Shown: positions 14,889-41,394 of the stretch, piece by piece | How positions within the stretch are numbered: the stretch's first letter is position 1 | Layout of the letters: every line of letters begins with the position of its first letter | Assembly (NCBI GenBank): GCA_017405465.1 | Contig: JAFRAJ010000016.1 | Coordinates: 62,001-126,000, forward strand | Direction of reading: 5' to 3' | Origin: Oscillospiraceae bacterium | GTDB taxonomy: Bacteria; Bacillota; Clostridia; Oscillospirales; Ruminococcaceae | Length of the DNA stretch: 64,000 nt | The notes under the pieces: generated by a model | The model's input: only the letters and a program-made list of their open reading frames with translations | What the model was told of the DNA's origin: nothing | Database searches by the model: none | Position numbers and translations under genes: made by a program

Positions 14889-14939
14889 ATGAATACCCCC
14901 ATTCTTGGTTTTGTCCAAGAATGGGGGTACATATCAATT

Positions 14940-16624: not shown

Positions 16625-16724
16625 CATGTGCTCATTTTCGGGTCAAATCTTACAAAACGATGACTCGGCATGGAGCGCAGTGTCAATTTGCCGCAAAATT
16701 TCTGTACGGAAGAAAGGAGTTCTG

Positions 16725-16883
16725 TTGTTCAAAATGGAGAATCTAAAAAATCTTGCAAAAAAAGTGCAAAAATCGACCTCAAAATTCAGCAAAGACATAT
16801 TAGAGGGACTTTTTCCCGAGCACTTTGACAACAGAATAGTTCATCCGTCAGATACGTTCCCAGAGTTGAGGGTGAAACCTTGA
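16725..16883 (+). CDS. Small hypothetical protein before the par leader
   Basis: A 52-residue basic peptide from a TTG start at 16725; an in-frame ATG is at 16734. AAAGGAG at 16713-16719 has better spacing to the TTG. The sequence starts MFKMENLKNLAKKVQKSTSK and ends PELRVKP; it is probably helical at the N-terminus. No family is recognised. It sits just in front of the GC-richer structured region that leads into parA, so it may be part of the ICE front end. Confidence 0.4.
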   Translation: MFKMENLKNLAKKVQKSTSKFSKDILEGLFPEHFDNRIVHPSDTFPELRVKP

Positions 16884-17150
16884 GCCGTGACTGTAGGCGC
16901 GCCGTGACCTCGAAAGAGCGAGCGATAAAGCTTATACAGCGAAAGCCGGTCTGCTACCGGTGGCGGCGATGACAGACTTTGGGGCTAATGATACTTCCGT
17001 AATTCGCGGCCCGGCCATGAAGAAGGCGGGGAGGTGAGATTCCTATGGACCTGACTCGCAATCAGGCGTCTGGCGTGATCCTGCCGTGCGGGCGTCGAGG
17101 ACAAACAGCACGGGAAAGCAAAGACAAATGTAAAACAACTATATCTATAT
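16884..17150 (+). ncRNA. Structured non-coding region upstream of parA, RNA candidate
   Basis: About 270 bases without an open frame, clearly richer in G and C than the flanking AT-rich DNA. It contains several short hairpins: CTCG/CGAG near 16909-16922, CCGGT/ACCGG near 16946-16960, GGCC..GGC near 17013-17027, CCTGA/TCAGG with a 7-base loop near 17050-17066, and CCGTGC/GCACGG near 17083-17113. Purine-rich single-stranded stretches such as GGGGAGGTGAGATTCC lie between. The dense pairing and sharp composition change suggest a structured RNA or a replication/partition site. I do not recognise a known RNA family. Confidence 0.4.
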
Positions 17151-17304: not shown

Positions 17305-18132
17305 TTGGAGAATTGCAAGGTCATAGCAATAGCAAACCAGAAAGGTGGAGTAGGGAAGACTACCACAGCAGTGAATCTCGGGGTCGGTCTCGCACGGCAG
17401 GGCAAGAGAGTCCTACTTATAGATGCAGACCCTCAGGGAAGCCTGACGATCTGTCTCGGATACAGAAATCCGGATGAACTGGAAGCGACTCTCGCGAATG
17501 TCATGAGAGCCGTAATAGATGAGAAGGATATTCCAGACGGCTATGGGATCATACATCACGCAGAGGGAGTTGATCTTCTCCCTGCAAACATTGAGCTTTC
17601 AGGAATAGAGACAGGCCTGGTCAACACGATGAGCAGAGAGCATGTCCTCAAGGAGTATATAAGTACTATTAGAAAGGATTATGACTATATCCTTATAGAC
17701 TGCATGCCATCTCTCGGAATGCTGACCATCAATGCCCTTGTAGCATCAGACAGTCTCATCATTCCGTCACAGCCGAACTTCTTATCGGCAAAGGGACTGA
17801 ATCTTCTGCTGAATTCAGTCTCAAGAGTACGGAGGACGATAAATCCGAGATTACGGATAGACGGCATCCTGCTCACTATGGTAGACAGCAGAACGAACAA
17901 TGCGAGGGATATCATAGCCTCGCTCAGAAACACGATAGGCCAGAACATCCGTGTATTCGATACGGAGATCCCGCATTCTGTACGTGCCGCAGAGTGCTCG
18001 CTTACGGGACAGAGCATCTATGCATACGACAGGAACGGGAAAGTGGCACAGGCATACGAGGAGTTTACAAAGGAGGTAGCGGAGATTGAAAAAGGTGCAG
18101 CCAATAGATCTCGGAATGACAGGATACGATGA
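17305..18132 (+). CDS. parA: ParA-family partition ATPase
   Basis: A 275-residue ParA/Soj-type ATPase, which positions or stabilises DNA with ParB. The deviant Walker A KGGVGKTTTAVNLG is at the N-terminus, followed by VLLIDADPQGSLT and the Walker B-like ILIDCMPSLGMLT. I chose the TTG at 17305 because AAAGGAGGT stands 8 bases upstream; a longer open frame starting at 17239 runs through the leader hairpin and has no ribosome-binding site. It overlaps parB by 47 bases. In ICEs of this type such pairs help to keep the excised circle during cell division. Confidence 0.9.
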   Translation: MENCKVIAIANQKGGVGKTTTAVNLGVGLARQGKRVLLIDADPQGSLTICLGYRNPDELEATLANVMRAVIDEKDIPDGYGIIHHAEGVDLLPANIELSGIETGLVNTMSREHVLKEYISTIRKDYDYILIDCMPSLGMLTINALVASDSLIIPSQPNFLSAKGLNLLLNSVSRVRRTINPRLRIDGILLTMVDSRTNNARDIIASLRNTIGQNIRVFDTEIPHSVRAAECSLTGQSIYAYDRNGKVAQAYEEFTKEVAEIEKGAANRSRNDRIR

Positions 18133-20102: not shown

Positions 20103-20130
20103 GGCCCGGACGGATAGTTCGGGCCTTTTT
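20103..20130 (+). terminator. Terminator between the exported protein and the adhesin
   Basis: GGCCCG pairs with CGGGCC around a 9-11-base loop and is followed by TTTTT. Read-through could still link the two genes. Confidence 0.75.
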
Positions 20131-20158
20131 ATTGCAGCGAAAAGGAAAGGAAGATTTA

Positions 20159-23100
20159 ATGACGAAGATTAGAAAAACGATCGCATTTATCATGATCCTG
20201 CTCATTGCTGTTTCATGCGTTCCGATGGGAGCGTTTGCAGAAGGAACAGAAGGGCAGGATATCGTAACAGAAGATACAGTGCCGGAGACAAATGTGGAAA
20301 CTGAGATCGAAGTACCGCCGGAAGAGGAAACAGCGCTTCCAGCGGAAGATGGTGTTCCGGCAGAATCGGAGGACATCCCAGAAGAAACTGCTGTGGATCC
20401 GGTAGATGACCCTCAGGAAGAGGAAGATCCTGGTATCACAGAAGAACCGGATCCGGTCATGGTAGAAGAAGAACCAGTCATAAAGATCACAGAAGAAGAT
20501 ATGACCGCTATTGATCCGGTCCCGGAAGCTGTCAGTGATGAACCTGCAGATGACGGGATTGTCTCTGAGGAAGAGATCATAGTTGATGATCCGGCTCTGG
20601 AAGCTGAAGCAGTGATTCCAGAAACAGAAGAAACTTCAGAAACTGAAGCTGAGGATGAAACGGAACTGACAGTCAGAGGCAATTTGCTGCTGGCTGCAGA
20701 ACCTACACGCGGATCCGCATATCTGCAGATGATCGATATGGATCAGTACTCCTACAGCTTCGGGAGCAACTATCCGGAACCCTTCAAGAACGAGAGCAGG
20801 AAAAGATCCTGCCAGTTTTGGTTCAACGGAGTACCTGCCTACTGCCTGCAGTTCGGTGTGGATTCATCATCGGGAATGTCATACTCCAGTCAGGATACTT
20901 GGGACGGGATCTCGGAGTCTGACAAAAGACTGCTCAGCTGGGTACTGAGATTCGGGTATATCGGCTGGACCAGATACGGTGCATCTACTGCGCAGGAATA
21001 TATGGCTACTCAGGTCCTCATATGGCAGATACTCTCACATACTGTAAACACAAGCTGGGAGCAGTCCATCTGCAACGAGATGATGGGGTCAGGTTCCTAT
21101 GCTCAGGATGTCTACTGGCAGATCAGAGCTCATGTATTTGCTGCAGAGACCATACCGAGTTTCTGCTCAAGCACAGACAACAGCAGCATTCCCATATATG
21201 ACCTGGAGAAACAGTCGGAAGGCGGATACTCAGTCAAGCTGACGGATACCAACGGAGTTCTCAGCAGATTCGATTTCTCACAGGACGGAGTCAGCGCAGT
21301 CAGAGACGGTAATACTCTGACGATCACACTGGACAGCCCTGTAGAAGAACTCACTCTTTCAGCAAACAAGAACTTCTCGGACTGGACTTCAGGAAATGTA
21401 TATTTCTGGAAGCCTGCCTCCAGCGGATATCAGTACATGGCCTCTTTTGACACAGGCAAGACGCCAGAGCAGGTGAAAGCTGTATTCAAGGTAACAGCTC
21501 CTATGGGGTATCTGGATGTTACGAAGGTTTCAGCCAACACAGCATGCACTGACGGAAATGACATGTATTCACTGGAAGGAACGACCTTTGAGGTAAAAGA
21601 TTCAGATGGGAACATCGTCGGAACACTTGTCGTCGATGAGAACGGAAAGGTCGAGACTCTGGAGCTTCCTGCCGGAACATATACTGTGACAGAAACAGCA
21701 GTCGGAAAAGGCTATATCAGGAACACTGAAGTCAAGACGGTTACGATCGTTCCCGGTGAAACCGCCACAGTGACTTTTATGAATAAACCGGTAGCAGACC
21801 CTGTCAGCATCTATCTCAGAAAGTGGGATAAGGAAGCAGACAGAGCTGTACCGCAGGGAGCAGGATCTTTTGCCGGAGCACAGTACCGTGTCGAGTATTA
21901 CGACAATACTGACTGGTCAGGCGAGCCGGAAGCAGTCTGGGTTTTTCAGACAGATGCTAACGGAATCCTGAGATACAAGCCTTCATACAAAGTGAGCGGA
22001 CCTGATCTGTATACGCTGAATGGCGATTATGTCATTCCTCTTGGCAGTGTAAAGATCTATGAGATCAAGGCGCCGGAAGGATATCTGGTATCACTTGACG
22101 AACTGTACCTCACGATCACTCAGAACAGTGATCAAACAGACGTACAGTGGACTACGGAGACACAGGGACTCATAAAAGAAATATCTGATGGTTATGGCGT
22201 GCCTGAGACCGTTATTCACGGAGGAGTCCGTTTCAAAAAGACAGATATTGAAACAGGCACACCTGTAGGCGGAGCAGAGATATCCATTTACAGTGATTCC
22301 GATGAAACTGTCCTGGTGAACGGTACAGAATACTCCAAGGGTGATCTGGTCGTGACGCTTACCACAGACGGGAACGGTATCTGTGAGACAGAAAGCGACT
22401 TCCTGCCATACGGTTCATACTATGCAATGGAGACAAAGCCTTCTGATATGTACCTGCTGAACGAGAAGTGGAAAGCTGAGTTCAGTATTACCGAGAATCT
22501 CAAAGTCGTGGATCTGACCTCTGACGCAGACCAACTCAAGGAGCAGATTATACGCGGAGACCTGTCTATGCTCAAACTGGACATCGACGGAAACTATAAG
22601 GCAAACATTCCCTTCATTATCGTCAGGATCAATGATGACGGTACAGAAGGCGAGAGCCATATCATCGTCACAGATGATAACGGCATGATCGATACTTCAG
22701 CAGCTTCCAGAAAGCATACCAACAATACCAACAGCATGGATCAGTATGTCGACGGAGGAACGTTCACTGATGTGACCAGACTGGATGCTTTTGCGGGAGT
22801 ATGGTTCGGAGATTCTGAGCCTGATGACAGTCTGGGAGCGCTGCCTTACGGAAGGTACAAGGTATATGAACTGCAGACAGAACAACTGGCTTCCGAACAG
22901 ATCAATATGCTGGAGTCCAGGATCATCGAGATCACTCAGCCTGACAGGACTGTAACACTTGCACCAATGGTCAATCTTAACATCGAGCTTGCGTCGGAAG
23001 CAGCATCTGCGGAAGGCAACGACTTTATCGCCGCCGCCACCGTGGGGGTGGTCGACACTGTTCATTACACCAACCTGACGTCACACCGCAGATACACTAT

Positions 23101-25375
23101 GGAAACTCAGTTCGTGCTCAAGAGCACATCTGAAGTACTGGGAACAGTATCGAAGGATTTCTATCCTCCTGACGGTCCCAACGGAACGGGTACCGCCGGC
23201 GGCAGCGTGACGCTGGAAGCGGGGATCGATACCTCAGGTCACGACGGGGACTTTGTAGTAGCCTGCGACTATCTTTATGAATATGTCATGGGAACAAAGA
23301 TCCTTATAGCTTCTCACGCAGACATGGAAGACGCAGCGCAGACTCTCATGATCCCGTCCATCAGGACGAATGCACGAGATTCAAGGACGAACGACAATGT
23401 CGGCGCAGTCTGTGAGAGCACTGAGATCATCGATTCAGTTTCATATACCAACCTCAAAAAGGGCGAAGTCTTTAAACTTGTTTCAAAACTTGGAGATATT
23501 GAAACAGGCGAATACATCAAAGGTAAAGACGGTGAGGATCTGATCGTGGAACAGGGCTTTGTCTGCTGGACTGAGAACGGTTCCGTAGAGATGCCCGCCT
23601 TCCTGATCGATTCCCGGGAATATGTCGGAAAGTCTGTCGTAGTAGTCGAGGAACTCTACTGGGTAGACGAAGAAAATGATACGGAAGTGCTTATGACTTC
23701 TCACATCAGCTTCGACGATAAGGATCAGACGATAACCTATCCGGAGATCCATACTACAGCCGCAGATGAGAATACTGCGGGACATGTCGGTGTCGTATCG
23801 GAAGAGACAGTTATCACTGATATCGTGAAGCTCAGCGGCTTGATCCCGGGCAGTGAGTATACGGTGAGCGGTACGCTGGTATATAAGGAAAAGTTCACAG
23901 ACAAAGACGGCGTAACACACAAGGAAGGCGACAGCGTGCCGGTCATGGATGATTCCATAACAGAAGTGACGTTCACGGCAGATGCTGCGGATATGGAGAT
24001 CGTTCTTAGCTACGTAATAGATTCCGCTGTGCTGGAAGGACATACAGCAGTCGTATTTGAGGATCTGATCCACAACGGAGTAACGGTCGCGTCCCATGCT
24101 GACCTGGAGGACAAAGAACAGTCTGTGTACTTCCCGGGACTCAGAACTCAGGCCATCGATAAAGAAAGCGGCAGCTGTTTCGTGACAAAGGGAGAAGAAG
24201 TGATCCTGGAGGATACAGTCAGCTACAGCAACCTGATTCCCGGAGAGACATACATCGTAAAAGGTGTACTGATGGACAAGAACACCGGAACATCTACCGG
24301 AATCATCAGCGAGAGCGCTGTTTTTGAGCCGAATAGCGCGGAAGGCACTGTGACAGTACAGTTTGCAGTCGATACGGAAGCGAACACTTCGTGCATCTTT
24401 GTCGTCTTTGAAGACCTTTACCTCATAAAGGAGGACGGCTCTGAGATCCTGATCGTAAAGCATGAAGATCTTGATGACGAAGTTCAGACTCTGTACAGTC
24501 CGGAAATCGGGACTACTGCTACAGATGCTGTGTCCGGTACTCATGAAGCCCAGGGAACGGAAAGCACAGCCGTTATAGACCGCGTGGAGTACAGAAACCT
24601 CAAGGCCGGAGAAAAATATACCGTTACAGGAACGCTCATGGACAAGTCCACAGGTGAGCCGGTTGTAATAGACGGCGAAGCTGTTACGGCAGAAGCAGAG
24701 TTTACTGCTGATGATAAGGACGGAACCGTAGAGCTCACATTCGTGTTCGACGGGACTGAACTGGTCGGAAAGACTGTAGTGGCCTTTGAGAGCCTTATGT
24801 ATGAGGACCTGGAGATCGCGGTGCACGCCGATATCGATGACGAAGATCAGAGCGTGAACATCATAAATATCCGTACCTTAGCGAGGGACGGTCAGAACGG
24901 AACACGGACTGCAGAATGGAACCATGAAGCTGTAATAGTGGATACAGTCTCCTATAAAGGACTTACTCCCGGAAAACAGTACACTCTTTACGGAGTCATC
25001 GTGCTGAGACCCACAGGAGAATATCTTGTACAGGAGAACGGCATCATTGAGGCTGTCATGGAGTTTGTCCCGGAAGAGCCGGACGGTACTGTCGAGATGG
25101 AATTCACTGTGGACACGGAAGCGCTGCAGGGACAGGATCTGGTGGTCTTCGAGAGACTGTACGAAGGATCCGTATCCATCGATGATGTCGGTACTGTCAT
25201 TCCGGTCGCAAGACACGAAGACCTGAACGATAAGGATCAGACTGTCAGTGTGCCGGTAAAGCCTGTGCCTGTTCCTCAGACAGGTGATGATTTCAACTTC
25301 AGCCTGTGGGGAGCGCTGTGCATCATGTCACTGGTGCTGCTGCTCCAGCTGAACGGTAAGAGAAAAAGAAGATAA
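20159..25375 (+). CDS. Sortase-anchored surface adhesin with thioester domain and VaFE repeats
   Basis: A 1738-residue cell-wall protein. Order: signal peptide (to about residue 27, ending AFA), an acidic Pro/Glu-rich stalk (about 30-175), a thioester domain with Cys229 in PAYCLQFG and Gln285 in ATQVLIWQ (an internal Cys-Gln thioester that can bind host surfaces covalently), about three SpaA/Cna-B-type domains (about 445-830), then about six VaFE-type repeats of 120-130 residues with boundaries like DKDQTITYP. The end is a sortase signal VPQTGDD, a hydrophobic helix and KRKRR. VaFE domains are expected to form intramolecular ester or isopeptide cross-links. The sortase at 44122 is the likely anchoring enzyme. 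Confidence 0.92.
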   Translation: MTKIRKTIAFIMILLIAVSCVPMGAFAEGTEGQDIVTEDTVPETNVETEIEVPPEEETALPAEDGVPAESEDIPEETAVDPVDDPQEEEDPGITEEPDPVMVEEEPVIKITEEDMTAIDPVPEAVSDEPADDGIVSEEEIIVDDPALEAEAVIPETEETSETEAEDETELTVRGNLLLAAEPTRGSAYLQMIDMDQYSYSFGSNYPEPFKNESRKRSCQFWFNGVPAYCLQFGVDSSSGMSYSSQDTWDGISESDKRLLSWVLRFGYIGWTRYGASTAQEYMATQVLIWQILSHTVNTSWEQSICNEMMGSGSYAQDVYWQIRAHVFAAETIPSFCSSTDNSSIPIYDLEKQSEGGYSVKLTDTNGVLSRFDFSQDGVSAVRDGNTLTITLDSPVEELTLSANKNFSDWTSGNVYFWKPASSGYQYMASFDTGKTPEQVKAVFKVTAPMGYLDVTKVSANTACTDGNDMYSLEGTTFEVKDSDGNIVGTLVVDENGKVETLELPAGTYTVTETAVGKGYIRNTEVKTVTIVPGETATVTFMNKPVADPVSIYLRKWDKEADRAVPQGAGSFAGAQYRVEYYDNTDWSGEPEAVWVFQTDANGILRYKPSYKVSGPDLYTLNGDYVIPLGSVKIYEIKAPEGYLVSLDELYLTITQNSDQTDVQWTTETQGLIKEISDGYGVPETVIHGGVRFKKTDIETGTPVGGAEISIYSDSDETVLVNGTEYSKGDLVVTLTTDGNGICETESDFLPYGSYYAMETKPSDMYLLNEKWKAEFSITENLKVVDLTSDADQLKEQIIRGDLSMLKLDIDGNYKANIPFIIVRINDDGTEGESHIIVTDDNGMIDTSAASRKHTNNTNSMDQYVDGGTFTDVTRLDAFAGVWFGDSEPDDSLGALPYGRYKVYELQTEQLASEQINMLESRIIEITQPDRTVTLAPMVNLNIELASEAASAEGNDFIAAATVGVVDTVHYTNLTSHRRYTMETQFVLKSTSEVLGTVSKDFYPPDGPNGTGTAGGSVTLEAGIDTSGHDGDFVVACDYLYEYVMGTKILIASHADMEDAAQTLMIPSIRTNARDSRTNDNVGAVCESTEIIDSVSYTNLKKGEVFKLVSKLGDIETGEYIKGKDGEDLIVEQGFVCWTENGSVEMPAFLIDSREYVGKSVVVVEELYWVDEENDTEVLMTSHISFDDKDQTITYPEIHTTAADENTAGHVGVVSEETVITDIVKLSGLIPGSEYTVSGTLVYKEKFTDKDGVTHKEGDSVPVMDDSITEVTFTADAADMEIVLSYVIDSAVLEGHTAVVFEDLIHNGVTVASHADLEDKEQSVYFPGLRTQAIDKESGSCFVTKGEEVILEDTVSYSNLIPGETYIVKGVLMDKNTGTSTGIISESAVFEPNSAEGTVTVQFAVDTEANTSCIFVVFEDLYLIKEDGSEILIVKHEDLDDEVQTLYSPEIGTTATDAVSGTHEAQGTESTAVIDRVEYRNLKAGEKYTVTGTLMDKSTGEPVVIDGEAVTAEAEFTADDKDGTVELTFVFDGTELVGKTVVAFESLMYEDLEIAVHADIDDEDQSVNIINIRTLARDGQNGTRTAEWNHEAVIVDTVSYKGLTPGKQYTLYGVIVLRPTGEYLVQENGIIEAVMEFVPEEPDGTVEMEFTVDTEALQGQDLVVFERLYEGSVSIDDVGTVIPVARHEDLNDKDQTVSVPVKPVPVPQTGDDFNFSLWGALCIMSLVLLLQLNGKRKRR

Positions 25376-25388
25376 GCAGATAAACGCG

Positions 25389-25420
25389 GGAGAGAAGCAT
25401 TACAGTTTCTCTCCATTTTC
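25389..25420 (+). terminator. Possible terminator after the adhesin gene
   Basis: GGAGAGAA pairs with TTCTCTCC around a 10-base loop, followed by ATTTTCTT. The T run is imperfect, so termination may be partial. Confidence 0.5.
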
Positions 25421-25442
25421 TTATGGAGATAGGAGGAAAAAC

Positions 25443-26054
25443 ATGCCTAATCATATCTACAACGTAGTGCATTTTGACTGCAACGAGGAAAAGCTGCAGG
25501 AGATACTGGAAGCGATACAGCATGACCATTTCGGACCGGGATCCATTGATTTCAATAAACTGATCCCGATGCCGGATGATGTGTATCAGGGCAATCTCGG
25601 ATCCAGGGAGATGAATCTGTATCCTGGAACAAAGAACTGGTACGGGTGGTCGGTCGAGAACTGGGGAACGAAGTGGCCCGCTTACGGCTTTGAGGATCTT
25701 CCTCAGGTCAAGGATGGAATAGTGTTCAATACAGCCTGGAGCTCTGTGCCGAGAATCGTGGAAAAGATATCCGAGAAGTTCCCGGATGTCAGAATGGAAT
25801 ACTGCTGGGCTGACGAGGATTTCGGAAGCAACACGGGACTGCTGGAATTCAAGGGAGGCGCTGTTCAGAGAGTATATATACCGGAAGACAGGACCAATGA
25901 AGCATTCCGCTTTGCAGCGGCGGTCCAGGGTGCTGATATCAGAGAATTCGGATACAGAGAAAATCCCGAGACAGGTGATGTCGAATTTGACGAGAGCCTG
26001 TTTATGGACAGGATGCCAGCCGTGAAGCCCAGGGATCAGGTGCGTGAGAGGTGA
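25443..26054 (+). CDS. YubB-like (api92/DUF1281-type) ICE protein
   Basis: A 203-residue protein starting MPNHIYNVVHFDCNEEKLQE, with conserved WYGWSVENWGTKWPAYGF in the middle. This fits the plasmid/phage YubB ferredoxin-like family (DUF1281, api92). Members are widespread on conjugative plasmids and ICEs, but their role is not known. The stop overlaps the front of the ArdC-like gene, and the run of overlapping genes to 28565 indicates one transcript. AGGAGG is present 7 bases before the ATG. Confidence 0.75.
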   Translation: MPNHIYNVVHFDCNEEKLQEILEAIQHDHFGPGSIDFNKLIPMPDDVYQGNLGSREMNLYPGTKNWYGWSVENWGTKWPAYGFEDLPQVKDGIVFNTAWSSVPRIVEKISEKFPDVRMEYCWADEDFGSNTGLLEFKGGAVQRVYIPEDRTNEAFRFAAAVQGADIREFGYRENPETGDVEFDESLFMDRMPAVKPRDQVRER

Positions 26055-26059
26055 GCGCC

Positions 26060-27208
26060 ATGGAAAAAGTGTTTTCCGGAGATGTGGATGAGATCCTGAA
26101 GTCGCTGGAGGACGGCCTCAGAGATTATATGGATTCCGATTCATACAAGGCATACCTCAGGGCAGTCAGCAGATTCCATGATTACAGCACGAACAATGTT
26201 CTGCTGATAACCATGCAGAAGCCTGACGCGACGCTCGTGGCGGGATATTCCACATGGAAGAATGCGTTCCACAGATATGTAAAGAAAGGCGAGAAAGCGA
26301 TCAAGATAATCGCTCCGATGCCGGCTGTAGTGGAGAAGGAACAGGAACGTACCGATGAATACGGAAACGTGAGCATTGAGAAGGTCATGGTCACGGTACC
26401 GAGATTCAGGGCAGTGAATGTATTTGATATCTCGCAGACGGACGGAGAACCATTGCCGAGCATAGATCCCAGGGAGCTCAGCGCTGATGTCGGCGATTAC
26501 AGCTGTTTTCTGCATGCGCTGGAGAGAAGCTCGCGGGTGCCGGTACGGTATATCGACATAGACGGCGGAGCAAAGGGATATTACCATGCGATACAGGACA
26601 GGATATTCGTACAAAAGGGAATGAGCCAGGCTCAGACAGTGAAAACACTGGTGCATGAGATGGCTCATTCCTATCTTCACGGGAGAGACGGCGGCGGGGC
26701 ACTGACTCCTCAGAAGACCAAGGAGGTCGAGGCTGAGAGCATAGCCTTCTCGGTATGTACTCATTTCGGTATCGATACTTCAGAGTATACGTTTCCTTAT
26801 GTCAGTGCCTGGTCCAATGAATCTGATCTCAAAACGCTCAAGAGTTCCATGAACACGATCCGTGACACAGCTTCCATGCTGATACACAGGATCGAGGAAA
26901 ACTATCAGATCATGACCAGGGAAAACGGAGCTGAAAAGCTGGCGGAAGATCTTATCGCTTTCATGAAGAATTATGATTTTTATCAGCTCAACAGCTGCGC
27001 GGATGATCCTCATCAGACAACGGAGCAGATCAAGGAGCAACTGATAGCCGGAGATACCAGGGCGATACAGAACAATGTCAGAGAGTACATGAGGGACGAG
27101 ACCGATCCCGACGCAAGGAATGTTATGGCTGATCTTATCGACAGGGTAAAGGAATTTGAACCGGAGGCATTGCCTCCCGAGAAGAAAGAGAGGGGACAGG
27201 AAAGATGA
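26060..27208 (+). CDS. ArdC-like ssDNA-binding protein with zinc metallopeptidase domain
   Basis: A 382-residue protein with an ArdC/DUF1738-type N-terminal domain (about 5-125: RFHDYSTNNVLLITMQ, TWKNAFHRYVKKGEKAIKI, VFDISQT). It then has a zincin domain with HEMAHSYLH (near residue 200) and a downstream Glu in EVEAESIAFSV as likely third ligand. ArdC proteins protect incoming single-stranded DNA from restriction during conjugation, and the peptidase domain is of the ImmA/IrrE kind. The ATG at 26060 fits GAGAGGTGA better than the GTG at 26051. It sits in the ICE's early-entry operon, as expected for an anti-restriction function. Confidence 0.82.
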   Translation: MEKVFSGDVDEILKSLEDGLRDYMDSDSYKAYLRAVSRFHDYSTNNVLLITMQKPDATLVAGYSTWKNAFHRYVKKGEKAIKIIAPMPAVVEKEQERTDEYGNVSIEKVMVTVPRFRAVNVFDISQTDGEPLPSIDPRELSADVGDYSCFLHALERSSRVPVRYIDIDGGAKGYYHAIQDRIFVQKGMSQAQTVKTLVHEMAHSYLHGRDGGGALTPQKTKEVEAESIAFSVCTHFGIDTSEYTFPYVSAWSNESDLKTLKSSMNTIRDTASMLIHRIEENYQIMTRENGAEKLAEDLIAFMKNYDFYQLNSCADDPHQTTEQIKEQLIAGDTRAIQNNVREYMRDETDPDARNVMADLIDRVKEFEPEALPPEKKERGQER

Positions 27209-27435
27209 TCTATTTCAATCATGATGAAAAGTGCATCCTGGATATCTATAAAGGAAGGTCCAGAATGCATACGATGGCAAATATAAGCAAGGCGCTGCCA
27301 CATGTCGAGGATTTCGCCATGAAGGAACTGGTGAAGGGCGTTCTCGAGAAGCTGGCAAAGGCGGACGACAGACAGTACAGAGCGCTTCTCAGAGGAGAAG
27401 AGTACCAGAGATACATGGAGGAGGATCTTGCATGA
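27205..27435 (+). CDS. Transposon-transfer assisting (TTRAP-like) protein
   Basis: A 76-residue acidic/helical protein (FNHDEKCILDIYKG, MANISKALPHVEDF, KELVKGVLEKLAKADDRQY). The pattern resembles the small TTRAP proteins of Tn1549-like elements. Its role in transfer is named from genetic context in that family and is not understood. It overlaps both neighbours by four bases. Confidence 0.65.
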   Translation: MIYFNHDEKCILDIYKGRSRMHTMANISKALPHVEDFAMKELVKGVLEKLAKADDRQYRALLRGEEYQRYMEEDLA

Positions 27436-27728
27436 GCGTATATACAAAGAACATCCAGGAATATGTTCTGCATCTGAGCAACGGAGACAACATCACCGTT
27501 GAGGACGATAACTACGGCGCAAACCGGTACTATCTTCCGGAGAGCATCGCAAAGGCGAAGGATCAGGATTCCTTATGGTTCGGTGACGCGGAGAAGGGAT
27601 TCACTGTAGTGCCAAAGAGAAGCATCGTCTATATAACTATGGGAGAGAGCAGGACAGTGCCTGTAAACAGTGTCCCGGACTTCCCGGTGCCTGAGTTCAG
27701 ACAGGAGGCTGTCAGGGCAAATGCGTAA
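27432..27728 (+). CDS. Small ICE protein of unknown function
   Basis: A 98-residue protein (MSVYTKNIQEYVLHLSNGDN start), probably beta-rich, with no membrane segment. No family is recognised. It is four-base coupled to the TTRAP-like gene upstream and overlaps the XRE regulator start, so it belongs to the same operon. Confidence 0.55.
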   Translation: MSVYTKNIQEYVLHLSNGDNITVEDDNYGANRYYLPESIAKAKDQDSLWFGDAEKGFTVVPKRSIVYITMGESRTVPVNSVPDFPVPEFRQEAVRANA

Positions 27729-28194
27729 CGAGACAGGAAGGAGAATAAAGTATTTCCGTAATAAATACGGAATGACGCAGAAAGGACTGGGCAAGGCACT
27801 GGGCTTCAGCGAAGGATCGGGCGATATCCGTATCAGCCAGTACGAGCAGGGAGCGAGGAATCCCGGACAAAGGAAGCTGGAGAAGATCGCAGAGGTATTT
27901 GAGATATCGCCTGAGGTGCTGACTCCGGCGGATGTATATTCCGGACCGGGTCTTATGAGCATCCTGCTTGCCATAGAAGACAACTACAAACTGGAGGTCT
28001 CGCTGGACGATGAGGATGTGGTGATCAGATTCGTGGCAGGAGACTATGACGAGTGGAGTCCAAAGAGCCTGGCATTGTTTGAGTGGGGACTCAAGAATAC
28101 TGCCAGAAATCAGGGACTGATCTCGGAAGATGATTACGATGACTGGAGATACGGGATCGTATCGAAACTTGAGAAGGAGGAACGCCGTAACTGA
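27721..28194 (+). CDS. XRE-family transcriptional regulator
   Basis: A 157-residue protein with an N-terminal Cro/CI helix-turn-helix (about 8-65: FRNKYGMTQKGLGKALGF, RISQYEQGARNPGQRKL, LEKIAEVFEISPEVL). The C-terminal half (about 70-157) is acidic, contains EWSPKSLALFEWG and may bind a ligand or partner. The ATG at 27721 has ACAGGAGGC upstream; a longer frame begins at 27670 without support. It is placed in the middle of an ICE operon and may control it. Confidence 0.8.
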   Translation: MRNETGRRIKYFRNKYGMTQKGLGKALGFSEGSGDIRISQYEQGARNPGQRKLEKIAEVFEISPEVLTPADVYSGPGLMSILLAIEDNYKLEVSLDDEDVVIRFVAGDYDEWSPKSLALFEWGLKNTARNQGLISEDDYDDWRYGIVSKLEKEERRN

Positions 28195-28565
28195 TGCAGA
28201 ATAAGAAAGAGATACATGATCATCTCAAGGAGGATCATGTCGGAAGAGAGAACGCTGTTTCCAGCAGAGAACTAGAGCAGCGTTTTTCTATGAATGGGAG
28301 AGCAATACGCAGGGTCATACACAGTCTGAGGCAGGACGGATGTCCCATCTGCAGCGAGAAGCGGGGATACTACTATGCTTCCAGTCAGAGCGAGATCAAC
28401 GGCACTGTTTCACGTCTTACCGACTTCATGAACGGGATTTCGGATACCAGTACAGCTCTGCTGAATTCAAAGATCCCGTCTGAGCAGATGAAGGTCACCT
28501 TTACAGTGACGATGGATGCGGCAACAGCAGAAAAACTGGGATTTTGCACATTTCACAGAGTCTGA
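28194..28565 (+). CDS. Winged-helix DNA-binding protein
   Basis: A 123-residue protein. The stretch AVSSRELEQRFSMNGRAIRR with VIHSLRQDGCPICSEKRGYYYA is a winged-helix fold, seen in phage and ICE replication-associated or regulatory proteins. The C-terminal part (MKVTFTVTMDAATAEKLGF) looks like a short beta-alpha unit. The ATG overlaps the upstream stop as TGATG. Confidence 0.65.
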   Translation: MQNKKEIHDHLKEDHVGRENAVSSRELEQRFSMNGRAIRRVIHSLRQDGCPICSEKRGYYYASSQSEINGTVSRLTDFMNGISDTSTALLNSKIPSEQMKVTFTVTMDAATAEKLGFCTFHRV

Positions 28566-28602
28566 AATAAAGCGTAGACTTTAGGCAGAAAGGGTTAAGA
28601 AG

Positions 28603-30021
28603 ATGGGATCCAGTTTTGCTGAAAAGCGTCCTGAACTGCTGACGGAATGGTCTGACAGAAACAGTGTATCTCCGGAAGATATCTCATATGGCAGTAACAC
28701 AGTATTCTGGTGGAAAGGTGCCTGCGGCCATGAATGGCAGACCAGCGTCAAATCGAGATCTGCGGGGGAAGGATGTCCGGTATGTGCAAACAAGCGGGTC
28801 ATTCCCGGAATCAATGATCTGGCATCACAGTATCCGGATCTGATGAGGGAGTGGTCGGAAGAGAATGAACTGGATCCCGCAGCCGTTTCGCCTGCGTCGC
28901 ACAAGAAAGCGAAATGGATCGGGAAATGCGGACACAGATGGGAGACGGAGATAAGATACCGCACACTGCACGGCACAGGATGTCCGTACTGCTCCGGAAA
29001 CAGGCTGCTGCGTGGTTTTAATGACCTGCAGACAAAGTTTCCGGGAATAGCATCCGAGTGGTCGAATAAGAACAAGGATCTAACTCCGGATATGGTCTTG
29101 GCATTTTCAAGCAGATATGTATGGTGGAAATGCAAGAAATGCGGCCATGAATGGAGATCACGGATCGCAGACCGTACAAAGGGACACGGATGTCCCTGCT
29201 GCAGCGGTGCGACGGTTTCCACAGGAATAAGCGATCTCAGGACTTTGTATCCTGAGATCGCAGAAGACTGGTCTGAGAAGAACGGGGATATGACTCCTGA
29301 CAGGGTCAGCCCGAAGAGCCGCAGAAACGTCTGGTGGAAATGCAGCAAGTGCGGATACGAATGGAAGGGCGTCATATATGCGCGAGTAAACGGCCAGGGA
29401 TGTCCTGCCTGTGATAACAGGGCAGTGATGCCGGGACACAATGATCTGGCCACGACCGATCCTGAACTCCTGAGAGAATGGGATTATGATTCCAATACAG
29501 TTGATCCGCATACCGTATCACGGCTTTCCCAGAAGGTGGTGAAATGGAAGTGCGGGAGCTGTCATCAGTACCGCATGAAGATCTCAGACAGGACACTGGA
29601 CAAAAAGGAATGTCCATACTGCAGACAGGAGTTTCTTGCATCGCTTCCGGGACTGGCGGTCCTGTATTATACCAGGATGGTGGATCTGTCCTGTGCGATA
29701 AGATCTGATGAGGTTATAGGACTGCCGTTGGAAGCTTATGTGCCGGTCATCAATATTGCCTTTGAGGTCGTGCCGGGAAAAACGAAAGGAACTGACCGGT
29801 CACTACAGCTAAAGAGGTATCTCTGTAATAAGAAGGGAATAAAGCTTATTGAGTTGCATGTCGGGGAGAACCCGGAACCGGTCTGTATACTGAGAACGGT
29901 AAAGAAAGAATTCAAAAAAGCAAATGTGTTTCTGACTTCAGATGAGAACAAGGATCTCATAAAGATCAGAAACACATATAACAGACTGAAGGAAAACGCG
30001 AGGTATGGTAAAGATGCGTAG
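28603..30021 (+). CDS. Protein with five zinc-ribbon repeats and a nuclease-like C-terminal domain
   Basis: A 472-residue protein with five tandem treble-clef/zinc-ribbon units (residues about 1-335). Each has a W-K-x(2-3)-C-G-H-E-W type first Cys pair and a GCPxC second pair, spaced by a conserved NDLxxxxPxLxxEWS stretch; this is the DUF4379-type repeat. The C-terminal 135 residues (LPLEAYVPVINIAFEVVPGK, then KRYLCNKKGIKLIELHVGE) follow the pattern of Vsr-like endonuclease domains often fused to these ribbons, but the acidic residues look partly lost. It may bind DNA and cut it weakly or not at all. The last bases overlap the next small gene. Confidence 0.7.
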   Translation: MGSSFAEKRPELLTEWSDRNSVSPEDISYGSNTVFWWKGACGHEWQTSVKSRSAGEGCPVCANKRVIPGINDLASQYPDLMREWSEENELDPAAVSPASHKKAKWIGKCGHRWETEIRYRTLHGTGCPYCSGNRLLRGFNDLQTKFPGIASEWSNKNKDLTPDMVLAFSSRYVWWKCKKCGHEWRSRIADRTKGHGCPCCSGATVSTGISDLRTLYPEIAEDWSEKNGDMTPDRVSPKSRRNVWWKCSKCGYEWKGVIYARVNGQGCPACDNRAVMPGHNDLATTDPELLREWDYDSNTVDPHTVSRLSQKVVKWKCGSCHQYRMKISDRTLDKKECPYCRQEFLASLPGLAVLYYTRMVDLSCAIRSDEVIGLPLEAYVPVINIAFEVVPGKTKGTDRSLQLKRYLCNKKGIKLIELHVGENPEPVCILRTVKKEFKKANVFLTSDENKDLIKIRNTYNRLKENARYGKDA

Positions 30022-30160
30022 AGAAGATAAGGTTGCGCTGACACTGACGACTGATGAGAGAAGGATCCTCAGGAAGATCATGTTGTATTTCCGCAACAAG
30101 GTCGCCAGAGAAGGAAAGCCCACTGAAGATATAGATGAACTGCTGATGAAGCTCTGGTAG
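30014..30160 (+). CDS. Small basic ICE protein
   Basis: A 48-residue peptide starting MRREDKVALTLTTDERRILR, then KIMLYFRNKVAREGKPTEDI and ending LLMKLW. It starts inside the last codons of the zinc-ribbon gene (translational coupling). Basic, helical, ribbon-helix-like size. Similar tiny ORFs occur in this position of clostridial ICEs (general recollection); no function is known. A terminator follows. Confidence 0.5.
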   Translation: MRREDKVALTLTTDERRILRKIMLYFRNKVAREGKPTEDIDELLMKLW

Positions 30161-30181
30161 AGATTGTGAGAATAATAGCGG

Positions 30182-30213
30182 CAGGCCATTCTATCTTGAA
30201 TGGCCTGTTTTGT
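30182..30213 (+). terminator. Terminator at the end of the first ICE accessory operon
   Basis: A perfect 9-bp stem CAGGCCATT / AATGGCCTG with an 8-base loop and TTTTGTT behind it. Confidence 0.88.
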
Positions 30214-30268
30214 TATAATTAGAGGCAGAAATCAGAAAGACAAATCGGTGGTTTGCAGAGGTGAGGTC

Positions 30269-30721
30269 ATGAGCAAGAATCAAGCCAAAGAGTTTTATGA
30301 ACAAGCAGATGAATACTGCCGTTTTATTGCTGAAAATGTAATTGCAGCCGATACAGTTCCATCTTTAATGGAACTGCTGATGACACTCTATATATCTGCC
30401 ATGAATCTTCCTGAAACAGAACCGGAAACAATAGCAGCATCATCATCGGATATTTCAGAATGTGTTACCATCAGATTTACTGAACAGATTCTTACGACGT
30501 ACTGGGAGATATTTGATCCGTATGCTGACGAAGATCCTGTATGTGGAGATCTGATCGATGATCTTTCCGATATCGCTGCAGATTTGAGAGACGGGATGAA
30601 GGAATATGAAGCTGGCAGATTCGGAAATGCTATATTTGAGTGGAAGTTTGGGCTGAACAACCATTGGGGTCAGCATATCGTGGATGCTCTGAGAGCATTA
30701 CATGCTGCAAGATCCCGATAA
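30269..30721 (+). CDS. DUF5063-domain protein
   Basis: A 150-residue helical protein. The C-terminal half (YWEIFDPYADEDPVCGDLID, then DIAADLRDGMKEYEAGR, EWKFGLNNHWGQHIVDALRA) matches the DUF5063 pattern. Function unknown. The ATG at 30269 with GAGGTGAGG upstream is chosen over an earlier in-frame codon at 30200. It is AT-richer than the ICE core and stands alone between a terminator and the DUF3991 gene, so it may be cargo. Confidence 0.7.
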   Translation: MSKNQAKEFYEQADEYCRFIAENVIAADTVPSLMELLMTLYISAMNLPETEPETIAASSSDISECVTIRFTEQILTTYWEIFDPYADEDPVCGDLIDDLSDIAADLRDGMKEYEAGRFGNAIFEWKFGLNNHWGQHIVDALRALHAARSR

Positions 30722-30796
30722 CTTCCTGTTTGTCTGGATAAAACACATATCATTTACGAGACAGCTTCGGCTGTCTTTTTTCTTGGAGGTGAGAGA

Positions 30797-31744
30797 TTGA
30801 GCTATGTAACAACAGATGAGATCATACAGGCAAGGCAGATGGACCTGCTGACGTACCTGCAGAACTATGAACCGGAAAATCTGATAAAGGTTTCAAGAGA
30901 TACATACTGCACTAAAGAACATGATTCACTTAAGATCAATAACGGTATGTGGCACTGGTTCTCGCGGGGATTTGGAGGAGCGACAGCACTTGATTATCTT
31001 ATCAAGGTAAAGGAAATGACTTTTCCTCAGGCGGTAATGACGATCCTTGGAAAGACAGCTGTTTCAAAACCTGTATTTATGAAACAGGAAGCAGACAAAG
31101 AAAGAAGACTGCTGCTTCCGGAAAGAAGCAGCAGTACAGATCACGTAGTTCGGTATCTGAGAGGAAGAGGCATACATCCTTCAGTGATCAATTACTGCCT
31201 GAAGAATGACCTGCTGTATGAATCAGCAGACAAACACAGAAACGCCGTATTCCTGTGCCGTGACATAAACGGAAAGGTCAGGAGCGCAGCGGTACGGAGT
31301 ACGACAACAGCATATAAGGGTGATGTGACGGGCAGTGATAAGCACTGCTCTTTTTCATTTCCGGGAGATCCTGGCAGAAACGATCTGCACATTTTTGAAT
31401 CGGCAATAGATCTTCTCAGCTATGCATCTATTCTCCAGATGAAGGGATATGACTGGCAGGAAGTACCGATGCTGTCGCTGGCGGGAGTCTACATACAGAG
31501 CAGGAAGGACGTAGTGCCTGTAGCGCTTGCCCAGTACCTCAAGGATCATCCGGTGATAACCGATGTGCACATGCACCTGGACAACGATGAGGTAGGACGT
31601 GGCGCTTCAGATGGTATCAAGGCAGGATTGCAAAATAGAGGCTATACAGTATTCGATGAGCCTCCTGCATGCGGCAAAGATGTTAATGACCAGCTTATGG
31701 CAAATGTCGGATTGAAACGTAACAGGGAGGTGTATCAGAGATGA
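30797..31744 (+). CDS. DUF3991/TOPRIM-domain protein, primase-like
   Basis: A 315-residue protein starting at TTG with GGAGGTGAG upstream. The N-terminal part has a CHC2-like region without a full zinc motif (WHWFSRGFGGATALDYLI), followed by the DUF3991 region (HVVRYLRGRGIHPSVI). The C-terminal TOPRIM fold has its Glu in HIFESAIDLLSYAS and its DxD-like acidic stretch in VHMHLDNDEVGRGA. Such proteins are standard in Tn1549-like ICEs and are thought to act in DNA processing during transfer. It overlaps the DUF3846 gene by four bases. Confidence 0.8.
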   Translation: MSYVTTDEIIQARQMDLLTYLQNYEPENLIKVSRDTYCTKEHDSLKINNGMWHWFSRGFGGATALDYLIKVKEMTFPQAVMTILGKTAVSKPVFMKQEADKERRLLLPERSSSTDHVVRYLRGRGIHPSVINYCLKNDLLYESADKHRNAVFLCRDINGKVRSAAVRSTTTAYKGDVTGSDKHCSFSFPGDPGRNDLHIFESAIDLLSYASILQMKGYDWQEVPMLSLAGVYIQSRKDVVPVALAQYLKDHPVITDVHMHLDNDEVGRGASDGIKAGLQNRGYTVFDEPPACGKDVNDQLMANVGLKRNREVYQR

Positions 31745-32145
31745 CAGAAGGCAAGATCAGAGTGATATATGTTGAGCCTGGTATGTATGCCAGGGATACA
31801 GAGATCGATACAGATCTAAGGGATCTGCAGAATGCAGTAATGGGTCAGATAGAAGTGTTCTATCCGTTTGATGAACCGGTTTGCATTGTCTGTAACGAGG
31901 AAGGCAAGATCAACGGGATGCCGTTGAACCGTGCTGTCTTCGGAGATGACGGTAAGATCACGGATGTGATCGCCGGACCGTTCTTCATATGCGGAGCAGG
32001 TGAGGAAGACTTCATCAGCCTCACTGATGAACAGGCAGATAAGTATCTGGAGATGTTCAGACGACCGGAGCGGATACAGTTTTTCGGAGGAAACACGGTC
32101 GTGACCTTATATGATCCGGTTCGAGAGCAGAGTTATGAAAGATAG
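31741..32145 (+). CDS. DUF3846-domain protein
   Basis: A 134-residue protein with the DUF3846 pattern: an early VIYVEPGM, then LQNAVMGQIEVFYPF, VCIVCNEEGKINGMPLNRAV, and a middle VIAGPFFICG. It is common next to DUF3991 proteins in clostridial ICEs. Function unknown. It is translated from an ATGA overlap with the upstream gene and closes that small operon. Confidence 0.8.
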   Translation: MTEGKIRVIYVEPGMYARDTEIDTDLRDLQNAVMGQIEVFYPFDEPVCIVCNEEGKINGMPLNRAVFGDDGKITDVIAGPFFICGAGEEDFISLTDEQADKYLEMFRRPERIQFFGGNTVVTLYDPVREQSYER

Positions 32146-32398
32146 AACTTGCCAGGTCAGGGGACGTGGCATTGTCGTAGCAAGCAACGTCTCTGTACGT
32201 ACAGAGACAGCTCGTTAGGGACTTTTCAGTCCCTAAGACCCTGCACCAACACACCAAGTATGGTAATCAGTAAACTACAGCAGTTGTCATTTTGCTGGTG
32301 GTTAGTGTAAAAACGGATTAGATTATAGTAACATTAGATTTAGACTAGATTGCTCTTGAAACGCTGTTATAGATTACGAATTTTGGAGGCTTGAAGTA
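32146..32398 (+). other. Intergenic region with two strong palindromes
   Basis: This 253-base stretch contains a perfect 20-base palindrome (32189-32208, half-site GTCTCTGTAC) and, six bases later, a 9-bp hairpin TTAGGGACT/AGTCCCTAA (32215-32236). Neither is followed by a T run, so they are poor terminators and could be protein-binding sites. The second half is AT-rich and leads into the paralog genes; no firm promoter was found. Confidence 0.55.
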
Positions 32399-32956
32399 AT
32401 GGCTGAATATAATTACTCTTTGAAAGTTGTTGATTATGTCGATTATTATGAAGCTCCTATAGAGGAGGACAATTATGAACGCTTAACAGAAAGTTTAGAG
32501 TACTATGGAAAAGTATTAATAGCAGAACAAAGGGAAGACTGCACTTTTTTTAGTGGAGTCCTTAGTTCTTTGGAGTCCCTAGATGCAATAAGGAGAAATC
32601 TTGTATGCGATGAGGGAACTTATCCATATGAATGGACTTTCTCAAATTGGCCTATAAAAACTGAAGCCGATGACAAAGAACATAACCGAGAAGTAGAGGT
32701 AGGATGCGGTTATCGTTTGAAACTCTGTAATTCTGTTGAGTCTCCTGATGGAGGTGAGATTTATTATCCTATACATGAAGAAAGTTTTAAAATCGTAAAT
32801 ATGTTATTAGGGTCAGGAGAAGTGCAGATAGCAGAACAAAGAGATAATTATACCTATTTTGAAGGAACAGTTCCTGCTTTGATCTACTTACGGGTATTAG
32901 ATTATATATTAGAACAGTATAAGTATGATCTGACTATAAGTAATTATCGTTATTAA
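32399..32956 (+). CDS. Hypothetical protein, first of a tandem paralog pair
   Basis: A 185-residue acidic, AT-rich-coded protein of unknown function. It contains two internal copies of a motif (VLIAEQREDCTFFSG near residue 40, VQIAEQRDNYTYFEG near 144), each probably a beta-hairpin unit, and ends in NYRY. The next gene encodes a close relative with the same two motifs and the same end. Both genes carry the same leader TTGGAGGCTTGAAGTAATGG, so the duplication included the ribosome-binding site. The AT-rich composition differs from the surrounding ICE genes and suggests later acquisition as cargo. Confidence 0.65.
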   Translation: MAEYNYSLKVVDYVDYYEAPIEEDNYERLTESLEYYGKVLIAEQREDCTFFSGVLSSLESLDAIRRNLVCDEGTYPYEWTFSNWPIKTEADDKEHNREVEVGCGYRLKLCNSVESPDGGEIYYPIHEESFKIVNMLLGSGEVQIAEQRDNYTYFEGTVPALIYLRVLDYILEQYKYDLTISNYRY

Positions 32957-32999
32957 TGATTTCACTGTTATTGATTAAGAATATTGGAGGCTTGAAGTA

Positions 33000-33563
33000 A
33001 TGGCTAAATATAATTACTCCTTGGAACTTCATGATATTGTCGATTATTCCGATGCTCCTATAGCTGATGGAAATTATGAAGGCATAAAAGAAGAGCTGGA
33101 ATTTTTTGGAGAAGTACTCGTGGCAGAACAAAGAGAAGACGGCACTTATTTTAATGGGACCCTTAATGAAGTGGGATTCATAGGGGTAGTACGGGAGTAT
33201 TTTGAAGATGGGGTAAAAGGGGATTATTTATATGATTGGACTATCTCAAATTGGCCCATGAATAATGAAGCCGATGACGAAGAACGGAACCGAATGGTAT
33301 GGGAGGGAGTTGGTTACCATTTGAAACTCTGTAATGCTATAGAGTCTTCTATTGGTAGCGAGTCCTATCATCCTTTACATAAGGAGAGCAGTGGTATCGT
33401 AAAAAGGATGCTGGAGAGTATGGGAGAAGTACAGATAGCAGAACAAAGAGAAGAATACACATATTTTGAAGGAATATTTGATGATTTGATGTCCATGGAG
33501 ATATTAGATGTTGTATTTGATCTATATAAGGTTGATCTGACTATAACAAATTATCGCTATTAA
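33000..33563 (+). CDS. Hypothetical protein, second of a tandem paralog pair
   Basis: A 187-residue paralog of the upstream gene. The start (MAKYNYSLELHDIVDYSDAP against MAEYNYSLKVVDYVDYYEAP), the WTISNWPMNNEADDEE middle, the two AEQRE motifs and the NYRY end all correspond. Divergence is spread evenly, which suggests an old duplication kept by selection. No domain is recognised; all-beta or mixed structure seems likely from the alternating pattern. It stands in front of a possible oriT and mobC. Confidence 0.65.
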   Translation: MAKYNYSLELHDIVDYSDAPIADGNYEGIKEELEFFGEVLVAEQREDGTYFNGTLNEVGFIGVVREYFEDGVKGDYLYDWTISNWPMNNEADDEERNRMVWEGVGYHLKLCNAIESSIGSESYHPLHKESSGIVKRMLESMGEVQIAEQREEYTYFEGIFDDLMSMEILDVVFDLYKVDLTITNYRY

Positions 33564-33576
33564 TGCTTTGGAGCGA

Positions 33577-33658
33577 CTTGTTAACTGATAAGAACAAGCA
33601 GAACTGATACAATTATTAAAATAGTTATCGCGCTTAATGGTAAGTGTTACCTGCGCTC
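33577..33658 (+). other. Candidate origin of transfer (oriT)
   Basis: The region directly before mobC holds the inverted repeats CTTGTT/AACAAG (33577-33598) and GGTAA-GTG-TTACC (33639-33651), then TGCGCTC. The core GGTAAGTG matches the start of the nick region known from IncQ/pIP501-type oriT sites (GGTAAGTGCGCCCT), although the following bases differ. Position next to the relaxosome genes agrees. This is an inference from short matches. Confidence 0.35.
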
Positions 33659-33691
33659 AAGAATATAAACGTAATACTGTTATTTTCTGAC

Positions 33692-33726
33692 AGCACCATC
33701 TGATGATAAGATGGTGCTTTTTCTTT
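33692..33726 (+). terminator. Terminator before mobC
   Basis: A perfect 9-bp stem AGCACCATC / GATGGTGCT with a 9-base loop, followed by TTTTTCTTTT. Confidence 0.85.
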
Positions 33727-33753
33727 TGCAGCAAAATGAAGGGAGGGGATTAT

Positions 33754-34077
33754 ATGCCAAAAAGGAACTGCAGATTCGAGGTGAGGCTCAGCAAGGATGA
33801 ATTCTACAATCTCTCAAAGAAAGCCAGGAAAGCAGGAATGTCCTGCGGAGAGTTTGTCAGAAAGGCAATAGAAGGTCAGACCGTCATGGAAGCGCCATCG
33901 GTTGATGTGCCTGTCCTGATCAGGGAGGTGCGTCGCGTCGGATACAGCCTCAACGAGATCCTCAAAGTCGCTTATTCCAGACAGCTGCTAGATGTACCTC
34001 AGCTGAGGAAAGCACTTGATGATAACAGGACTGTCGAGAAAATGATTGCAGAAGCATACGGGCAGACATGGCAGTAA
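33754..34077 (+). CDS. mobC: Relaxosome accessory protein MobC
   Basis: A 107-residue ribbon-helix-helix protein. The N-terminal FEVRLSKDEFYNLSKKARKA and AGMSCGEFVRKAI form the RHH fold, and IREVRRVGYSLNEILKVAY is the MobC family signature. MobC binds oriT and helps the relaxase to open DNA. The ATG at 33754 has GGGAGGGG upstream. It overlaps the relaxase start by ten bases, and the order mobC-relaxase is standard for this ICE class. Confidence 0.88.
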   Translation: MPKRNCRFEVRLSKDEFYNLSKKARKAGMSCGEFVRKAIEGQTVMEAPSVDVPVLIREVRRVGYSLNEILKVAYSRQLLDVPQLRKALDDNRTVEKMIAEAYGQTWQ

Positions 34078-36228: not shown

Positions 36229-36240
36229 GGAGAGAACGGT

Positions 36241-37113: not shown

Positions 37114-37121
37114 GTGGTCAT

Positions 37122-37307
37122 ATGTACGGTGAAGTAGTCCTGAAGCTGAGCGGCTTCGAGCAGCGTCTTATGGTAAACGGTCTGGTCGAGTTCAAGAACG
37201 ACCTGACCAGGAACGACAAGCCGACAGAGGATGTGGATGATCTCATCCTCAAGGTGATAGACGCGCCTCCCGTAAAACAGAGGAGGCGCGTCCGTGAGGA
37301 GAGATAA
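37122..37307 (+). CDS. Small ICE protein of unknown function
   Basis: A 61-residue peptide (MYGEVVLKLSGFEQRLMVNG start, basic end KQRRRVREER). No family is recognised beyond the general occurrence of small ORFs in front of VirD4 genes in these elements. It overlaps the VirD4 start by 14 bases, so translation is coupled. Confidence 0.55.
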   Translation: MYGEVVLKLSGFEQRLMVNGLVEFKNDLTRNDKPTEDVDDLILKVIDAPPVKQRRRVREER

Positions 37308-39412: not shown

Positions 39413-39538
39413 TGGTTTTCAGTGCAGCAGCAGTCCGCTGCAGCGACACTTTCTGAGCCTCCCGCCCACCCCAAAAGTATCGCAGGGGTGATCTTTAATC
39501 GCAAAGGGAGGAAGTGGTGCAGATCGATATATAATTTC

Positions 39539-39560
39539 GGAGCCTTCGGGCTCCTTTTTT
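39539..39560 (+). terminator. Terminator behind the Maff2-like gene
   Basis: GGAGCC pairs with GGCTCC around a short TTCG-type loop and is followed by TTTTTT. The 120 bases before it contain the palindrome CGCTGCAGCG but no gene. Confidence 0.85.
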
Positions 39561-39583
39561 GTTAGGAGGAAGGAGGTGTTTGG

Positions 39584-40420: not shown

Positions 40421-40433
40421 GTGACGGAGGTAA

Positions 40434-41393: not shown

Positions 41394-41394
41394 C

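Follow-up and report, generated by a model that had tools for sequence, protein, structure and literature searches.

A pemK-family RNA homologous to the Tn916 canT region heads an ICE conjugation operon and is very probably a processive antiterminator

Organization of the locus

The window, a 64,000-nucleotide stretch of an Oscillospiraceae bacterium contig (JAFRAJ010000016.1, positions 62,001 to 126,000), carries an ICE conjugation operon of ~30 kb lying on a single strand, and at the head of this operon a conserved RNA element of ~294 bases (16820-17113, + strand) is located before parA (Table 1). Downstream of the element the gene order is parA, parB, and then genes for an ArdC-type anti-restriction protein, a relaxase, VirD4 and a VirB4-like protein, with all of these on the + strand, which is followed to ~48 kb. 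The ICE operon contains terminator-like hairpins, six of which are intergenic and co-oriented with the genes; across 16.5-34 kb, terminator-like hairpins number 27 when both strands are counted, as compared with 11.4 +/- 3.5 in shuffled sequences. No promoter was recognised directly upstream of the element.

Two other features adjoin the RNA. An 85-codon reading frame at 16626-16883 overlaps the boxA-like motif and the 5' strand of helix P1 and has no NCBIfam match; it probably does not represent a gene, or else it terminates within the RNA leader. The segment 17151-17268, which lies between the element and parA, displays a perfect 11-bp inverted repeat (ATGCGTACAGG/CCTGTACGCAT) that closes a strong fold (z = -6.4) and is followed by a T-run; it may serve as a terminator or as a binding site for a protein. 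Save for a 24-base match, no copy of the 17150-17268 fold was found elsewhere in the same genome or in 20 relatives, and for this reason it was left out of the element.

Family assignment, borders and structure of the element

A covariance scan of the window against Rfam identified pemK RNA (RF02913) at 16985-17048 with 71.6 bits (E 6e-11), the match covering model positions 1-61 of 61. As the gathering score of RF02913 is 34.8 bits, the window core qualifies as a clear member of the family, and the sequence-only reading, which could not assign the stretch to any known family, is superseded on this point. Its suggestion of an RNA of the ICE, on the other hand, gains support from both the Rfam match and the homology to the Tn916 antiterminator described below. 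At E<=1, the scan of the window reported besides pemK RNA only dinG RNA (RF03082), which scored more weakly (25.1 bits, below its gathering score of 46.9), and a chance miRNA match. The RF02913 model of 61 positions corresponds to about a fifth of the element, and the boxA, the 5' domain and the pseudoknot fall outside it. In the literature searched, no function has been assigned to pemK RNA.

The GC content is ~0.38 upstream of the element, 0.51-0.61 across 16800-17099, and again 0.38 at 17100-17249, a profile that bears out the earlier description of a non-coding stretch with a sharp change of composition. The description of the stretch as hairpin-rich also holds, with several hairpins present, including one with a 5-bp stem and a 7-base loop (P7). 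This hairpin had been likened to an anticodon arm; the hairpin itself stands, but a search of the window with ARAGORN detected no tRNA, and a tRNA-like arm was ruled out. The borders drawn at first, 16884-17150, marked a real feature but misplaced its limits: on the 5' side they miss the first 64 bases, including the boxA and one strand of a long-range helix, and on the 3' side they run ~37 bases past the conserved end.

Aligned copies of the element present, from 5' to 3', the boxA-like motif; P1; a 5' domain with the motifs GAGCC, CGCCRUGACC and GAGCGA and hairpins P2 and P3; the core with P4-P6; P7; and, in a subset of copies, a 3' pseudoknot. For the 5' domain, a covariance model designated R1 was built from 23 sequences with both the window and Tn916 left out. 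This model finds the 5' domain of the window at 16820-16997 (103.9 bits, E 4e-18), and at 52 of 55 further loci an R1 match lies beside the core on the same strand.

Table 1. Features of the RNA element and of the operon that it heads (positions in the window)
Feature	Position	Strand	Basis or remark
Whole canT/pemK-type RNA element	16820..17113	+	R1 match, RF02913 match and covarying 3' pseudoknot to 17113
boxA-like motif GCACTTTGACAACAGAATA	16820..16838	+	13/16 vs consensus CCTTGAAAACTGAATA
P1 long-range helix, 5' strand UCCCAGAGUU	16858..16867	+	pairs with 16975-16984, 10 pairs including G-U
P2 hairpin CCUC-GAAA-GAGC, within conserved CGCCRUGACC...GAGCGA	16908..16919	+	alignments A2/A3, R1 consensus structure
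P3 hairpin CCGG-UCUGCUA-CCGG, then conserved GGCGAUGACA	16946..16960	+	alignment A3, R1 consensus structure
P1 long-range helix, 3' strand GACUUUGGGG	16975..16984	+	covariation test
pemK RNA core (AUAAUGAUACUUCC, P4, P5, P6)	16985..17048	+	RF02913
P7 hairpin, 5-bp stem and 7-nt loop, CCTGA-CTCGCAA-TCAGG	17050..17066	+	alignment A1
3' H-type pseudoknot	17079..17113	+	S1 17079-17081/17090-17092; S2 CCGUGC 17084-17089 with GCACGG 17108-17113
parA, first gene downstream	17305..18132	+	Pfam AAA_31 3e-60 and CbiA
Six intergenic co-oriented terminator-like hairpins	20103..39554	+	at 20103, 25389, 30180, 30758, 33692, 39539
Conjugation genes	34068..44092	+	relaxase 34068, VirD4/TraG 37294, VirB4-like ATPase 41753

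Because loop lengths shift the register of the helices between copies, counts of pairs in fixed columns of MAFFT alignments were replaced by a comparison of complementarity within and between sequences. P1 is formed by 49 distinct helices in 67 copies, with a mean of 7.24 as compared with 5.07 +/- 0.13 in between-sequence controls, and the pseudoknot helix S2 by 25 distinct helices in 30 copies, with a mean of 6.37 bp as compared with 3.98 +/- 0.21 when partners were swapped between sequences, controls that treat the sequences as exchangeable and correct only partly for relatedness. Covarying stems among relatives, which had been proposed as a check on the element, are therefore found for P1 and S2, and the pairing of P7 also exceeds its between-sequence control. 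Helices S1 and S2 of the pseudoknot are joined by a conserved GCGUCGAGGACAAACA, and the pseudoknot, which sits around GUGUCGAGGACAAAU in the subset of copies that carry it, was recognised in only 30 copies. The folding energy of 16870-17160 did not exceed that of shuffled sequences (z = +0.5; 142/200 shuffles fold as well or better), nor did that of 16866-17055 to any marked degree (z = -0.9), and thermodynamic stability was accordingly dropped as a proof of structure. The evidence for the predicted structure, as drawn from sequence comparisons, is covariation among relatives together with the covariance-model matches, not folding energy. A conserved structure is supplied here; the canT study could not obtain one by folding a single sequence.

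Homology to Tn916 canT and the boxA motif

In 2024, canT of Tn916 was demonstrated to be a cis-acting, orientation-specific, processive antiterminator that also works on distant and heterologous terminators (PMC11658703). Tn916 carries the same element just upstream of xis, composed of a boxA (TGTTCTTTGAAAACTGAATA), the 5' domain, P1 (CGAUAAGAA/UUCUUAUCG) and the core; RF02913 matches it with 55 bits (L125:3823-3923) and R1 finds its 5' domain with 72.1 bits (E 5e-12). The window element is homologous in sequence and structure to this canT region, through the RF02913 core and the R1 5' domain. The two have in common the boxA, the 5' domain (GAGCC..CGCCATGACC..GAGCGA), P1, the AUAAUGAUACU core and the RF02913 match, and both precede element genes on the same strand, although canT lies before xis-int and the window copy before parA. 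They differ further in that the core hairpin of canT has a long insert, and in the 3' pseudoknot, which is present in the window element but was not recognised in Tn916.

The core is also the site of a mutation that abolishes antitermination. canT(S3), a 3-base change of an ATA located 283 nt after the orf8 stop, reduced the reporter to <5% of wild type (PMC11658703). As calculated from the published coordinates and the orf8 stop, this ATA lies at L125:3823-3825 and aligns with model positions 1-3 of RF02913. At this site the window reads CUAAUGAUAC (CUA) and Tn916 AUAAUGAUAC (AUA), such that bases 2-3 are kept and the first is C; the first base of the site is therefore not invariant. C is also found in a further locus (L101), and two others (L034/L036) differ as well.

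At the 5' end of the element, the boxA is conserved in relatives as G.[AT]CCTTGAMAAYTGAATA. A motif matching CCTTGAAAACTGAATA at 13 or more of 16 positions is present within 300 bases upstream of the core in 63/88 distinct copies. At the same threshold, the reverse complement and shuffles each gave 0/88 and the downstream sequence 3/84, the three downstream matches probably representing neighbouring copies of a tandem array. A G located five bases ahead of the 14-base boxA core is found in 61/61 copies, though it was not a criterion of selection. The same motif precedes the 16S and 23S genes of related genomes (CACCTTGAAAATTGAACAAC, GTTCTTTGAAAATTGAATAACG), in rrn leaders and spacers, and the window element carries a motif like the rrn-type boxA of those genomes. 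The motif is what the element has in common with the rrn boxA/Nus-factor antitermination complex, while rrn leaders give only weak R1 matches (E 0.008 or worse), confined to short stretches that start at the boxA. The name boxA rests on this motif match and on what is established about rrn leaders; neither boxA nor Rfam is mentioned in the canT paper (PMC11658703). From the published coordinates, the active 452-bp Tn916 canT fragment starts at L125:3666, inside the boxA and without GTTCT. A complete boxA is therefore not needed in that Tn916 reporter, and the position of the fragment start argues against a strict NusB-S10 dependence.

Distribution, function and alternative readings

The pemK core was found in 100/298 genomes of the same family, often in several copies per genome, and in 26/398 genomes sampled across the phylum. 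The doubt raised at the outset, that the stretch might lack conservation in related ICEs, falls away because the element is widely conserved, and the match to a known family that had also been envisaged was found, to pemK RNA and not to an intron fragment. Most distinct copies (69/83) precede, on the same strand and usually by 100-400 bases, a gene for PemK (29), a serine recombinase (17), ParA (12), a tyrosine integrase (5), a ParB-like protein (5) or TnpW (1), calls that were made from short sequence motifs and not by searches for full domains; upstream on the opposite strand, the control yielded 0/85. Searches of plasmid and phage DNA with the whole segment returned short, unannotated matches only. 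A second copy in the genome of the window (L002 1349-1644, contig C57) lies before a ParB-like frame that is cut short after ~47 codons. At another locus (L065 6092-7525, minus strand), four tandem copies of the RNA, ~430-500 bases apart, are arrayed upstream of a ParB-like gene; these keep the boxA and core, with most of the 5' domain missing.

We consider it very probable that the element is a cis-acting, canT-type RNA processive antiterminator heading the ICE conjugation operon. The observed basis consists of the canT homology, the conserved structure, the boxA identity, the position and the terminator-like hairpins; by analogy, we infer that the window copy itself would antiterminate. Copy control, an entry signal and a partition or replication site, the functions suggested from sequence alone, are unsupported, and for the Tn916 relative antitermination has been demonstrated experimentally (PMC11658703).

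The element might instead act as a local cis-regulatory leader, a riboswitch or attenuator affecting the next gene only. Rfam assigns pemK RNA the type 'Cis-reg', PemK is the commonest next gene (29/83), and in the window the strong hairpin at 17151-17268, with its T-run, precedes parA. However, the next genes (PemK, ParA, ParB-like, serine and tyrosine recombinases) are unrelated and have as their common trait a position at the head of a mobile-element module, and the Tn916 relative affects distant, heterologous terminators, which leaves a purely local action unlikely. ICEs also need single-strand origin, oriT or partition sites, and the location before parA/parB would suit a DNA site of this kind, functioning as a folded single strand or by binding a protein. 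Against such a site, which we judge highly improbable, an rrn-type boxA fixed at the 5' end is an RNA feature, the orientation toward downstream genes is strict, many copies adjoin pemK or recombinases and not parA, and Tn916 canT works as a transcribed, orientation-specific element. That some genomes are multi-copy and that dinG RNA is typed as an sRNA in Rfam could point to a trans-acting sRNA, e.g. one for copy-number control or an antitoxin RNA; the usual place 100-400 bases before same-strand genes and the function of Tn916 canT in cis give this reading very little credence. Finally, a relic of a mobile RNA, whether the intron fragment named earlier or an IscB/TnpB transposon guide RNA, would fit the abundance of the element in mobile elements but is scarcely credible, as there is no Rfam match to an intron, HEARO or related RNA at E<=1, the neighbouring genes do not code for the nucleases of such transposons or introns, and the canT homology disfavours it. 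HEARO/omega RNA, intron, T-box and riboswitch were each ruled out for lack of Rfam support.

A proposed mechanism of antitermination

Processive antitermination by the element might proceed as follows. The nascent RNA of 16820-17113 would fold into the P1-closed 5' domain, the AUAAUGAUACUUCC core and the 3' pseudoknot, and the folded RNA would modify the elongation complex, probably together with NusB and S10, which the boxA would bring in. RNA polymerase so modified could pass the intrinsic terminators over the ~30 kb that extends from parA to the genes for the relaxase, VirD4 and VirB4 inclusive, whereas transcripts begun elsewhere, and thus without the element, would end at those terminators. 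We infer the involvement of NusB-S10 and any use of the boxA, as well as a role for the pseudoknot, which belongs to a part that Tn916 canT is without.

Relation to other systems and significance

The pemK and dinG RNA families were reportedly described in a 2017 paper. The window element has the AAUGAUACUUCCG core in common with dinG RNA, and of five dinG RNA loci that were fetched, four (L147, L149, L150 and L151) match R1, two of them with a boxA of 15/16. By these matches, dinG RNA seems to belong with pemK RNA in a single class. It is enticing to extend this to a broader proposal, to which we give somewhat less than an even chance: pemK RNA, dinG RNA and canT may constitute a single large class of antiterminator RNAs from ICEs, which start with a copy of the boxA of the host rrn operons and recruit NusB-S10 to load a structured RNA, in a subset including the 3' pseudoknot, onto RNA polymerase. 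ICEs across the phylum would then exploit the rRNA antitermination machinery, so that their transfer operons are expressed from the proper promoter and from no other. In the literature searched, the scope of which excluded the 2017 family paper, no published link of pemK RNA, canT and boxA was found, and it may have been noted before; the joining of pemK RNA, dinG RNA and canT as one class opening with an rrn-type boxA appears to be absent from that literature.

A Gram-positive conjugation operon of >30 kb that is headed by a processive antitermination system is already known from plasmid pLS20, in the form of conAn (PMC8955417). The conAn system (the ConAn1 protein and conAn2 RNA) resembles the window element in its position at the head of a long conjugation operon but needs a protein; it was ruled out as a relative, as neither RF02913 nor R1 matched the stretches of pLS20 that were scanned, a comparison that did not include the conAn2 sequence directly. 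RNA-only processive antiterminators include the HK022 put RNA and the Bacillus EAR (reviewed in PMC11658703). No sequence relation of the element to either was found, the Rfam scan reporting only pemK RNA. If the reading of the element as an antiterminator is correct, two Rfam families (pemK and dinG) gain a testable function, and the canT mechanism is indicated far beyond Tn916, given a core in 100/298 family genomes and 26/398 across the phylum. A possible reason also emerges why a long ICE operon can contain many terminators and yet remain unexpressed until transcription starts at the right promoter.

Other features of the window

Several genes of the window drew attention apart from the RNA. 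Coded within the conjugation operon is a 1747-aa VaFE-repeat surface-anchored protein (20132-25375). Upstream of the element, two small predicted membrane proteins, encoded at 13050-13313 and 15703-16023 on either side of an IS3-like transposase pair (13504-14918), have in common a C-terminal cysteine motif that ends in CPNWRP. The adjacent frames at 32399-32956 and 33000-33563 look like paralogues (MAEYNYSLKVVDYVDYYEAP / MAKYNYSLELHDIVDYSDAP) that arose by tandem duplication.
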